From the NCBI GenBank assembly GCA_030765625.1, contig JAVCCF010000019.1, positions 1 to 32,965 on the forward strand: DNA of 32,965 nt. Reading direction: 5' to 3'. How positions within the stretch are numbered: the first letter of the stretch is position 1; every line of letters starts with the position of its first letter. Both the position numbers and the translations under genes were made by a program. A model generated the notes under the pieces. The model saw nothing but the letters and a program-made list of their open reading frames with translations, was not told the origin of the DNA and made no database searches. Positions 4,564-25,180 of the stretch are shown piece after piece. This stretch comes from Candidatus Tenebribacter burtonii. Its GTDB lineage: Bacteria > Cloacimonadota > Cloacimonadia > Cloacimonadales > TCS61.

Positions 4564-5613
4564 ATGAAAATAGCAATTGCTATGAGCGGCGGAGTAGATA
4601 GTTCGGTTGCTGCTGCTCTGTTAAAAAAAGAAGGTTATGAAGTTTTTGGACTTACCATGCGTCAGTACGATGCAAAAAAATCCGGCTATGGTGAGAATGA
4701 AGGGATTGAAGCAGATATAAAAGACGCCAAAGCTGTTTGTAATGCTTTGGGAATTGAACATTTTGTGGTAGATCTGCAAGAAGATTTCAAAAAAATAGTT
4801 GAAAAGAATTTTATCGAAGAATACTCTTCCGGTCGCACTCCAAACCCCTGTGTTATTTGTAATCCAACTATCAAATTTGGAAAATTCATGGAAGCAGCTT
4901 TTAATTTAGGTGCCGATAAAATAGCTACCGGCCATTATATTCAGATCAAAGAAGAAAATAGTCAGTTTAAAATTCTAACTTCTGCAGATGCTTCTAAAGA
5001 CCAAACTTATATGATCTGGAAATTGAACCAGCTCCAACTTTCCAAAACTCTTTTTCCTATTTCAAAATATAAAAAACCGGAAATTCGCAAAATTGCTGAA
5101 GAACTTGAACTACCAATACATTCCAAAACAGATAGTCAGGAGATCTGTTTTATCAAAGATCATTATGAAGATTATCTGAAAGATCACATAATTTTCACTC
5201 CTGGAGATATCATCCTGCCTGATGACAAAGTTATTGGCAAACACCGCGGATTGGCACTCTATACAATCGGGCAGAGAAAAGGACTTAACACTCCCTGGAA
5301 ATGTCCGTTATTTGTTTTGAAACTAGATGTAGTAAACAACACACTTGTGGTCACCGAAGATCCTGATGATCTGTTGGAAGATATTTTTGAGCTTGAAGAT
5401 GTGAACTGGATAGCAGGTAAGAAACCGGAAGAATTTTCAGGAATATCAATCCAGATCCGTTATAATAGTTCTCCCGTTCCAGTGAAAAATATTCAGGAAA
5501 AAGGAAATTCACTTCTAATTGAATTAGAAAAAAGCACACGTGCCATCACGCCCGGACAGTCTGGAGTATTTTACAAAGACAACCAGTTGCTTGGCGGTGG
5601 GATTATTAAATGA
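4564..5613 (+). CDS. mnmA: tRNA-specific 2-thiouridylase MnmA
   Basis: Cytoplasmic enzyme that puts the 2-thio group on uridine 34 of tRNAs for Lys, Glu and Gln, using ATP and a persulfide relay. The N-terminal PP-loop is SGGVDSS at residues 8-14. The two catalytic cysteines are Cys96 (NPCVICN) and Cys195 (SQEICFI). GHYIQI and DQTYMIW are further family landmarks. The length of 349 residues is normal. The start has a GAGGG site directly upstream. A repeat-filled gap of 177 bases separates it from wecB, so joint transcription is uncertain. Confidence 0.95.
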   Translation: MKIAIAMSGGVDSSVAAALLKKEGYEVFGLTMRQYDAKKSGYGENEGIEADIKDAKAVCNALGIEHFVVDLQEDFKKIVEKNFIEEYSSGRTPNPCVICNPTIKFGKFMEAAFNLGADKIATGHYIQIKEENSQFKILTSADASKDQTYMIWKLNQLQLSKTLFPISKYKKPEIRKIAEELELPIHSKTDSQEICFIKDHYEDYLKDHIIFTPGDIILPDDKVIGKHRGLALYTIGQRKGLNTPWKCPLFVLKLDVVNNTLVVTEDPDDLLEDIFELEDVNWIAGKKPEEFSGISIQIRYNSSPVPVKNIQEKGNSLLIELEKSTRAITPGQSGVFYKDNQLLGGGIIK

Positions 5614-5662
5614 GGGATTAAAGAATAGGGATTAGGGATGAGGGATGAGGAATTAGAGATTA
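5611..5662 (+). repeat. Purine-rich GGGATTAGGGATGAGG tandem array (left part)
   Basis: Short imperfect units of the type GGGATTA, GGGATGA and GGAATTAG follow each other, beginning at the mnmA stop codon. The same unit family returns at 5739-5784 and around the four-helix-bundle gene at 24138-24170 and 24565-24615. It is non-coding. Confidence 0.75.
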
Positions 5663-5665
5663 GCT

Positions 5666-5729
5666 GGACTTGACTTAAAGATTTCGGTAATCTCTCTTTA
5701 TTTCTCAATCGAAGACTTGAGTTAAGAAC
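5666..5729 (+). repeat. Dispersed repeat element, copy 1 (GGACTTGACTTAA ... GAGTTAAGAAC)
   Basis: The stretch opens with GGACTTGACTTAA (5666-5678) and closes with GACTTGAGTTAAGAAC (5714-5729). The same opening and closing words bound copies at 24956-24991 and, inverted, at 25131-25173, with different interior lengths. It sits between two purine-rich arrays. It is probably a non-autonomous repeat family of this genome; the mechanism is unknown. Confidence 0.6.
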
Positions 5730-5738
5730 AGATAATAA

Positions 5739-5784
5739 GATGAGGAATTAGGGATTAGGAATGAGGGATTAGGAATGAGGGATT
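5739..5784 (+). repeat. Purine-rich GGATTAGGAATGAGG array (right part), supplies the wecB ribosome binding site
   Basis: Units GAGGAATTAG, GGATTAG, GAATGAGG, GATTAG and GAATGAGG continue to within seven bases of the wecB start codon. The last GAGGG (5777-5781) has the right distance to serve as the wecB Shine-Dalgarno sequence. Confidence 0.7.
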
Positions 5785-22862: not shown

Positions 22863-24122
22863 TTATTTATCTTTTATGCTCATGATAATATCGGAAATGT
22901 TAATGACTTTCTGTTCCCCGTTTCCCAGATCTTTTAGAATGATCTTATTCTTTATAAGTTCATTTTCACCCAAGATCAAAGCAAATTCAGTACCTGTTTT
23001 ATTTGCAGCCTTCATCTGTGCATTCATCGATGTTTTATCGGGATCGAATTCCGTGGAAATGCCATTTTCTCTTAATTCCATAATTATTTTTATTCCTGCT
23101 ATTCTGGCTTCATCACCCAAGGAAACCAGATAGACTTTTGGCTTTTGCTGCAAACCAAAGGGAAGTTTCTCTTCCTCCATCGAAAGCAGTAATCTTTCAA
23201 AACCACCGGCAAAACCAATACCCGGCATATTTTTCCCGCCCAGCTGTTCAGCCAGGGTATCGTATCTTCCACCACCGATAAGAGTATTCTGCGCTCCCAG
23301 GTTTGTATCTACAAATTCAAAAGCTGTCTGTGAATAGTAATCAAGTCCCCGCACTATCTTCGGATTTACAATATATGGAATTTCCATTGCGTTAAGATAC
23401 TCTTGAACTTTTTCAAAATTTGCCCGGCAGTCATCATCAAGATAATCAAGCATGGAAGGAGCATCTCTGGCAATTTCCTTACAACTTTTCACCTTGCAGT
23501 CTAGTACCCTTTTAGGATTTTTCTCCAATCTTTTACGGCAATCGGAACAGAGAGCATCCAAATTTGGTTTAAAGTATTCCTTAAGTGCATTATCATAATC
23601 TTTAGCACAGTTCTTGCAACCAATATTATTGATCTGAAGTACAAAATTCTTTAGTCCAAGTTTGGAGAGAAACATATAGGCAAAAGCTATCACTTCTGCA
23701 TCCGCATAGGGATTCATTGTGCCAATATTTTCAATTCCATATTGATAGAACTGACGGTACCTTCCCTTTTGGGGACGGTCATAGCGGAACATGGGACCAA
23801 GATAATAGAGTTTGGAAGAATTGGGTTTTAGCATCAATCCATTTTCAATAAATGAACGCACCACCGGAGCTGTTCCTTCCGGACGCAGGGCAAAAATTCT
23901 TCCCTTCTTATCTTCAAATTTGTACATTTCTTTTTCCACAATATCACTGGTTTCACCGACACTGCGTTCAAAGATGCCGCTCTTCTCAAAGATGGGAGTT
24001 ATGATCTCTCTATAGTTGAATCCACGTGCAACTTCCCTGAAGGCATTGATTACAAATTGCCATTTATAACTCTGATCTGGGAGAATGTCAAAGGTTCCGC
24101 GTGGTACTTTGTATCTCGACAT
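22863..24122 (-). CDS. hisS: Histidyl-tRNA synthetase
   Basis: Cytoplasmic class II aminoacyl-tRNA synthetase of 419 residues. RGTFDILPDQ at the start; motif 2 near FRYDRPQKGRYRQFYQ; the histidine motif RGLDYYSQTAFEF; motif 3 with GIGFAGGFERLLLSM. A cysteine-rich part (IGCKNCAKDY, CSDCRKRLEKNP, DCKVKSC) is common in the bacterial family. AGGAG precedes the ATG. The gap to groES is 93 bases and holds the CIRCE operator. The repeat array of the four-helix-bundle cassette begins only 16 bases upstream of the start codon. Confidence 0.96.
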   Translation of the reverse strand: MSRYKVPRGTFDILPDQSYKWQFVINAFREVARGFNYREIITPIFEKSGIFERSVGETSDIVEKEMYKFEDKKGRIFALRPEGTAPVVRSFIENGLMLKPNSSKLYYLGPMFRYDRPQKGRYRQFYQYGIENIGTMNPYADAEVIAFAYMFLSKLGLKNFVLQINNIGCKNCAKDYDNALKEYFKPNLDALCSDCRKRLEKNPKRVLDCKVKSCKEIARDAPSMLDYLDDDCRANFEKVQEYLNAMEIPYIVNPKIVRGLDYYSQTAFEFVDTNLGAQNTLIGGGRYDTLAEQLGGKNMPGIGFAGGFERLLLSMEEEKLPFGLQQKPKVYLVSLGDEARIAGIKIIMELRENGISTEFDPDKTSMNAQMKAANKTGTEFALILGENELIKNKIILKDLGNGEQKVINISDIIMSIKDK

Positions 24123-24137
24123 AAATATCTCCTTTAC

Positions 24138-24167
24138 AATTAGGAATGAGGAATGAGAGATAAGAGA
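24138..24167 (-). repeat. GGAATGAGGAATGAG array at the 3' side of the four-helix-bundle gene
   Basis: On the plus strand AATTAGGAATGAGGAATGAG and similar purine units fill the space between hisS and the stop codon of the four-helix-bundle gene, which itself lies in the last GAGATTA unit. Compared with the array on the other side (24565-24615) it is in inverted orientation. Confidence 0.65.
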
Positions 24168-24530
24168 TTATCTTTTTTCAAGATTCTCTCTTGCTGTTTT
24201 AGTAATTGAACTTAATATTCGAATCAATGAATTTGACATTTCAATTAATTCAACTAACTCTTTACTATGATCTAAATGACCATTTACAATGATTCTCAAC
24301 CAATAATTAGTTTCTCGTGATTCTTTGAAAGCTATATACATCTTAGATAGAAAATCTTTTTTTGATTGAGCAGCATTCGCTTCTTCTATGTTTGCACCAA
24401 TTGAAGTTCCAGACTTTAATAACTGATTACTGATAACAAAATTATCTTTAGATAATCTGTTCAATTTTTTACAAAATAATACTATCTTCACTGCAAAATC
24501 GAAAGAGATGTCAAGCACTTCATTTTTCAT
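24168..24530 (-). CDS. Four-helix-bundle protein (23S rRNA intervening-sequence/S23 family)
   Basis: Protein of 120 residues with the pattern of the S23/IVP family: FDFAVKIVLFCKKL, SNQLLKSGTSIGANIEEANA, KKDFLSKMYIAFKESRETNYWLR (helix 3) and a last amphipathic helix. The GTSIGANIEEA core is diagnostic. The family was first seen as ORFs inside 23S rRNA intervening sequences and is related to the Avd accessory protein of diversity-generating retroelements. Here it is neither in an rRNA gene nor near a reverse transcriptase, but between inverted repeat arrays. GAGGA precedes the ATG. The molecular role is unknown. Confidence 0.88.
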   Translation of the reverse strand: MKNEVLDISFDFAVKIVLFCKKLNRLSKDNFVISNQLLKSGTSIGANIEEANAAQSKKDFLSKMYIAFKESRETNYWLRIIVNGHLDHSKELVELIEMSNSLIRILSSITKTARENLEKR

Positions 24531-24564
24531 TTGAATATCCTCATCAACAATTCTTAATCGGCAA

Positions 24565-24615
24565 TCCCTAATTTTTCATTCCTAATTCCTAATTCCTAAT
24601 TCCTAATTCCTAATT
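24565..24615 (-). repeat. Tandem AATTAGG heptamer array at the 5' side of the four-helix-bundle gene
   Basis: Five perfect CCTAATT heptamers (24581-24615 on the plus strand) plus degenerate units (CCCTAATT, CATT) towards the gene. It directly abuts the 3' end of the SRP RNA gene. Same unit family as at 5611-5784 and 24138-24167. The regular short unit without spacers excludes a CRISPR array. Confidence 0.85.
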
Positions 24616-24620
24616 AATTA

Positions 24621-24886
24621 GAGTGTGCACCTGCAATCGATACCTATTCTAGAGCAGAAATTAACAGCCAACTCAAATCAAGTAGACCAGCGGCACATCG
24701 TGATAACTATTTAGTGCTGCTCCCTTCCGGATCTGACACAGTTCATAGCTCACAATTGCGCTGGGCTTGACTCTCAACACCACTTATTAATACTACAAAA
24801 GAAATCACTATTCTCAAACAGGAATTCAGCCCCACTATAGCGGATTGTGGGTTACAGGACGCCGCTACCTTCCCGCCTAGCACACT
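24621..24886 (-). ncRNA. ffs: Signal recognition particle RNA, long (Alu-domain) type
   Basis: RNA component of the signal recognition particle that pairs with Ffh to target membrane and secreted proteins. On the minus strand it begins GTGTGCTAGGCGGGAAGGTA and then GTAGCGGCGTCCTGTAACC, the Alu-domain start of the Bacillus-type RNA. It contains the universal Ffh-binding loop GTCAGATCCGGAAGGGAGCA (near 24745-24725) and ends GGTGCACACTC, whose GCACAC pairs with the 5' GTGTGC. Length is about 266 bases, close to the Bacillus RNA of about 270. Ends are set by this terminal pairing and may be off by a few bases. Confidence 0.92.
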
Positions 24887-24921: not shown

Positions 24922-24990
24922 GTTTTGCTATTGGAAACTGATGTGTTTTCACCCCGGATTTGACTTAACAGCGAAGCGTTGAGTTAAGAA

Positions 24991-25081
24991 CGAGATTGAG
25001 ATTGAGGTCAGATTGAGAACGAGATTGAGATTGAGGTTGAGGTTAAGATTGAGGTTGAGGTTAAGATTGAGATTGAGTTAA
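24991..25081 (+). repeat. GAGATT/GAGGTT hexamer array
   Basis: About fifteen units of GAGATT, GAGGTT, GAGGTC and variants such as GAGGTTAAGATT follow each other. The word GAGTTAAGAA starts and ends the array. It lies within the palindromic element and has no reading frame with coding signs. Confidence 0.7.
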
Positions 25082-25084
25082 GAA

Positions 25085-25120
25085 TAAAAATAGCCTCTCA
25101 GTTTACACCGAAAGGCTATT
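25085..25120 (-). terminator. Intrinsic terminator after the GLUG-repeat protein gene
   Basis: On the minus strand AATAGCCT (25120-25113) pairs with AGGCTATT (25096-25089) around a 16-base loop and is followed by TTTTTATT. It lies about 60 bases beyond the stop codon. Confidence 0.7.
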
Positions 25121-25180
25121 CAAATTGTTCGTTCTTAACTCCACTGTCATTTTATTTCCGTGAAGTCAAGTCCGAGAACT

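Follow-up and report, generated by a model that had tools for sequence, protein, structure and literature searches.

The spacer between hisS and the gene for the signal recognition particle (SRP) RNA, in a 32,965-nucleotide stretch of Candidatus Tenebribacter burtonii DNA (hereafter, the window), contains a small gene of the S23/IVP family flanked on both sides by GGAATTA-type heptamer arrays in inverted orientation. The gene and its two arrays (the 5′ and 3′ arms) probably constitute one mobile cassette of ~500 bp, a dispersed relative of the intervening sequences (IVSs) of 23S rRNA. The cassette behaves like a mobile element that inserts into spacers within bacterial operons; its design recurs in several phyla, with a repeat that differs by protein lineage. 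We directly observed that the inverted arms match and go with the S23 lineage, that the protein bears the signature of purifying selection, that the cassette sits between a stop codon and the next Shine–Dalgarno sequence, and that it is present, absent or decayed at one and the same spacer in sister species.

With one of the window arms inverted, their alignment scored 35, as against 16 in direct orientation, and a score of 35 was reached in 0 of 2000 mononucleotide shuffles. This bears out an earlier note, made from the letters of the window alone, that described the S23 gene as lying between arrays of opposite orientation. Its finer description was also accurate: five perfect heptamers lie on the SRP RNA side and degenerate units on the hisS side, where the 3′ arm stops within a few nt of the S23 stop codon. 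As the same note had it, the unit contains no transposase: the arms enclose no open reading frame (ORF) of 70 aa or more besides the S23 gene.

The window gene belongs to the S23/IVP family on both profile score (PF05635, E = 4e-21, 75.6 bits with a curated cut-off of 33.8; TIGR02436, E = 4e-26) and four-helix-bundle fold. Its AlphaFold model (pLDDT 95.7) is predicted to resemble the S23 protein of Bacteroides thetaiotaomicron (PDB 2RLD, TM 0.82–0.86), Xcc0516 of Xanthomonas campestris (2GSC, TM 0.74–0.82) and Avd of diversity-generating retroelements (4DWL and 8UB7, TM mostly 0.65–0.8). The product is a small, putative nucleic-acid-binding-type protein, and the family shares the consensus core QxRRAAVSIPSNIAEG. 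For most pairs of S23 genes dN/dS was ~0.05–0.2, a low value that points to purifying selection and therefore to a protein that is used. One S23 gene, in genome G026 (L141:4230-4910), is interrupted within its conserved SIPSNI/AEGAGR motif by an insert of ~350 bp, which carries a small GIY-YIG nuclease-like ORF of 82 aa and gave no Rfam intron match.

We searched 99 genomes, comprising that of the window (G000) and its relatives, and found S23 in 78 of them, with up to 12 matches per genome. G000 has four S23 loci, and its copy between rnfC and rnfD shows a frame break. For the 92 Cloacimonadota S23 genes that had both flanks, the downstream flank was inverted and aligned locally with the upstream one, and arms were called from a score of 26. 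Matched inverted 7/8-mer arms were present at 65% of these genes, versus 2.4% of randomly re-paired flanks (Mann–Whitney p = 3e-36). Shuffles gave 1.5%, and other ORFs of the same loci 7%, a control that includes some uncalled S23 copies or ORFs beside one. Where S23 flanks were strongly periodic, the period was mostly 7 or 8. The median distances are 1 nt between the upstream stop codon and the 5′ arm and 22 nt between the 3′ arm and the next start codon, and the median span is 504 bp; the cassette is seated between a stop codon and the next Shine–Dalgarno sequence.

The same layout occurs well outside the Cloacimonadota, a breadth that was absent from the earlier note, as was the dependence of the repeat unit on S23 lineage. 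Inverted arms were present at 67% versus 3% in a separate sample drawn from the phylum of a Patescibacteria genome, and the layout was seen at S23 loci of Neomarinimicrobiota and Elusimicrobia. On plasmids, it surrounds S23 genes in Nostoc, Aulosira, Euhalothece, Dolichospermum, Bernardetia and Treponema. Eight of the 12 loci in the plasmid and phage set passed by score, and L198, whose start the script had mis-called, by eye; arms were borderline at L195 and L201, and the phage contig L203 had none.

The arms are linked to the lineage of the S23 protein, not to the host genome. Units vary widely from locus to locus (GGAATTA, GGTCGAGA, GTGGAAAG, GTTAGCTT, GGGACAG and others), and the two arms of a locus match. 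Among S23 pairs that are at least 60% identical and lie at non-homologous sites, 38% had a unit in common, whereas 1000 label permutations averaged 4% and never exceeded 18%. Unrelated S23 genes shared a unit in 1/52 pairs within one genome versus 137/3764 between genomes, that is, with no excess within a genome. In 11 of 16 pairs at the same site, a change in one arm went with a change in the other; at trkH–trkA, for example, proteins 66% identical are accompanied by arms of GGTGTTA/GGTTTTA or of GGGACAG. Closely related cassettes adjoin unrelated genes.

Empty and decayed copies, which the earlier note had postulated, were seen at the hisS–ffs, rnfC–rnfD and trkH–trkA sites. Between hisS and ffs, both the window and L057 carry the cassette. 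A collapsed array pair occupies the site in L056, a lone array that in L060 and a different array (AAAAAGC) that in L058; L059 and L061 have neither S23 nor array. Fixation of the S23 gene at this locus, named beforehand as a finding that would speak against a mobile unit, is contradicted by its absence from L056, L059, L060 and L061. Between rnfC and rnfD, cassettes occur in G000 (broken), G002 and G008 and internal deletions or remnants in G001, G006, G007 and G009, while G003 is empty; outside the genus the spacers are 10–174 nt, mostly short, and devoid of S23, that of G016 holding a gene-free array. At trkH–trkA, we found cassettes of 516 bp in G064 and 442 bp in G068 and a 40-bp remnant in G084; four further congeneric species have empty spacers of 19–31 nt, and most outgroup genomes read have spacers of 9–12 nt. 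Since the outgroup spacers are tight at trkH–trkA and mostly short at rnfC–rnfD, gain of the cassette is needed. The filled and empty spacers, with the link of the arms to S23, support the proposal that gene and repeats form a unit spreading into intergenic spaces; the movement itself is what we infer from them.

The cassette, arrays included, would be copied to new operon spacers. Its S23 protein, with an Avd-like fold and a conserved core, may recognise the hairpin formed by arms of its lineage, and might bring in an enzyme supplied in trans. Matching of the arms could be maintained if one templates the other after slippage, and later deletions would take out the gene and leave gene-free arrays.

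Several observations weigh against a mobile cassette. No movement was observed and no mobilising enzyme identified; about a third of the S23 genes lack clear arms, and arrays also occur without S23. Co-directionality of S23 with the neighbouring genes was close to background, not above it. The short filled and empty spacers are too diverged for exact ends or a target-site duplication to be resolved. Moreover, 10 of the 24 genomes with at least five S23 matches have no RVT_1, and some S23-rich genomes have no Y1 transposase.

As to the enzyme, the earlier note had suggested looking for a co-inherited reverse transcriptase or recombinase. A reverse transcriptase appears not to be required: G000 (98% complete) has no RVT_1 match, hence no reverse transcriptase alongside its Avd-like protein, and across genomes the association was weak only, many S23-rich genomes being without RVT_1. 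Counts of Y1 transposases do correlate with those of S23 (rho 0.56), yet these enzymes are absent from several S23-bearing genomes and kinship confounds the correlation.

A different role for the arms would be at the RNA level, with the inverted arms folding the mRNA into a stem that is cut by RNase III, so that the operon transcript loses the cassette, which is thereby tolerated, and the arms are selected as RNA. The IVS of Coxiella burnetii offers a precedent, with GACAGAT heptamers preceding its S23 gene, a terminal stem of 28 bp and excision by RNase III (PMC4990558); moreover, the arms of the window cassette pair in the predicted RNA and the 5′ arm is G-rich in 47/51 cases. However, arm mismatches show no excess of G-U over A-C (72 vs 95) and the sense duplex is no stronger than the antisense one, the two being equally stable. 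An RNA-level role of the arms is therefore not supported by these two results, which also count against the mobile cassette. With a whole-cassette fold z of only -1.4 besides, we regard this explanation as rather unlikely.

S23 genes might instead have inserted into pre-existing microsatellites that arose by slippage, as gene-free arrays at several sites and the over-representation of heptamers in some bacteria (PMC4692102) would allow. We consider this improbable, given that the arms are inverted and do not form one continuous array, that the unit tracks S23 lineage across sites and not the genome, and that the empty rnfC–rnfD and trkH–trkA sites hold no arrays. Very improbable, in our judgement, is a vertically inherited operon regulator with binding sites flanking its own gene, whose scattered presence would reflect loss only. 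Purifying selection and same-site orthologues in several species agree with such a regulator, but the outgroup spacers call for gain and closely related cassettes lie beside unrelated genes.

The earlier note held that arrays unassociated with S23 genes would undermine the idea of a unit; the strong association given above stands, but gene-free arrays are common, and only 2 of the ~8 GGRATKA clusters of G000 come with S23. The other ~6 have neither S23 nor an S23 remnant within the stretch read. Likewise, the gene-free array noted before wecB is real, but it consists of two arrays (5613-5663 and 5739-5784) that share one orientation and lie around a separate TTGACTTAA...TTGAGTTAAGAAC segment; no S23 remnant was found there. 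This mnmA–wecB array varies in the genus, being short in G002 and G006 and of GGGATTC type in G008. Gene-free arrays could be what is left of cassettes, or could have been seeded in trans.

The rnfC cassette and two gene-free arrays of G008 (C101, C123, C180) have the GGGATTC unit in common, and at the mnmA–wecB and rnfC–rnfD sites G000 has GGGATTA/GGAATTA instead. A second repeat, TTGAGTTAAGAAC, occurs in the window at 5717, 24979 and 25073 (1 mismatch) and, inverted, at 25131 (1 mismatch), making 4 matches versus 0.12 expected (regions 24965-25143 and 5680-5730). The copies near 24979-25131 adjoin a GAGATT array (24992-25083), and that at 5680-5730 is placed between two heptamer arrays.

The coordinates of the cassette and its neighbours are collected below; the closest relatives of hisS are 79–84% identical, and two of these carry the name Ca. 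Tenebribacter, in line with a Cloacimonadota genome close to that taxon.

Features of the cassette and its surroundings (window coordinates)
Feature	Position	Strand	Basis
S23/IVP four-helix-bundle gene, 120 aa	24168..24530	-	PF05635, TIGR02436, AlphaFold model
5′ arm, upstream of S23 gene: TTAGGAA heptamer array, 5 perfect + degenerate units	24563..24615	-	
3′ arm, downstream of S23 gene: ~3 degenerate heptamers, inverted orientation	24138..24167	+	
Bacterial large SRP RNA (ffs), upstream neighbour	24623..24885	-	RF01854, 174 bits
hisS, downstream neighbour	22863..24122	-	ORF + relatives, 55-84% identity in Cloacimonadota
Two gene-free heptamer arrays, same orientation, from mnmA stop codon, before wecB	5611..5784	+	

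Some S23 genes have distinctive neighbours. On plasmids of Nostoc sp. TCL26-01 and Anabaena cylindrica (L193, L195), the gene lies between cas2 and cas1. On plasmids of Chloroflexota and Cyanobacteriota (L201, L204), it has a helicase-related gene on one side and a DNA methyltransferase region on the other, an arrangement that may represent one operon type found in two phyla. Two Cloacimonadota genomes have an S23 gene close to tmRNA (L145, L151), which, with the SRP RNA of the window, hints that S23 genes prefer sites next to small-RNA genes.

S23/IVP genes are common, and their role outside rRNA IVSs has so far gone unexplained; heptamer arrays, too, have been reported in several bacteria without explanation. 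The link between them provides a testable unit: a protein together with the repeat that belongs to it, at sites that are filled in some sister species and empty in others. The link would also open the long-standing question of how IVSs spread to direct testing, and it supplies a natural case in which a protein lineage and its repeat change in step. More tentatively, and with somewhat less than even confidence, we envisage a so far undescribed, cross-phylum class of selfish elements whose ends would be matched, inverted, lineage-specific 7/8-mer microsatellites; an Avd-fold protein would recognise these ends, and inter-arm copying would maintain their match. rRNA IVSs and the unexplained heptamer arrays of Nostoc and Xanthomonas might then be special cases or remains. 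We found no publication tying dispersed S23 genes to inverted arrays in a search that covered few subscription journals or preprints and does not establish priority; the Coxiella IVS paper (PMC4990558) was the only one found on S23 with arrays.

Like MITEs and REP/RAYT elements, the cassette is short and intergenic and has inverted ends; unlike them, it varies in terminal sequence, codes for a conserved protein other than a transposase and shows no demonstrated dependence on one. With diversity-generating retroelements it shares the predicted Avd fold, but not a reverse transcriptase. Heptamer arrays are likewise intergenic in Xanthomonas campestris, with ~70 inverted pairs of GGGAATC arrays, and are known from Nostoc as GGGGATT arrays (PMC4692102); that paper does not mention S23, although the S23-like structure Xcc0516 comes from X. 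campestris. The closest parallel is with 23S rRNA IVSs, which have an S23 family gene, a length of ~430–500 bp, terminal inverted repeats, tandem heptamers by the gene and a sporadic distribution. The window cassette, too, encodes an S23/IVP protein and has terminal inverted repeats able to form a predicted stem, but it lies in the hisS–ffs spacer and not in a 23S (or 16S) rRNA gene; in 20 other S23 loci no rRNA reached the gathering threshold, none lay beside S23 loci that lack arms, and two loci hold tmRNA. Cassettes differ from IVSs in occupying protein-operon spacers, in having arrays as arms and in a unit that changes with lineage. Finally, the ORF of the Coxiella IVS is reported as decaying (PMC4990558), whereas the S23 protein of the cassettes is under purifying selection.
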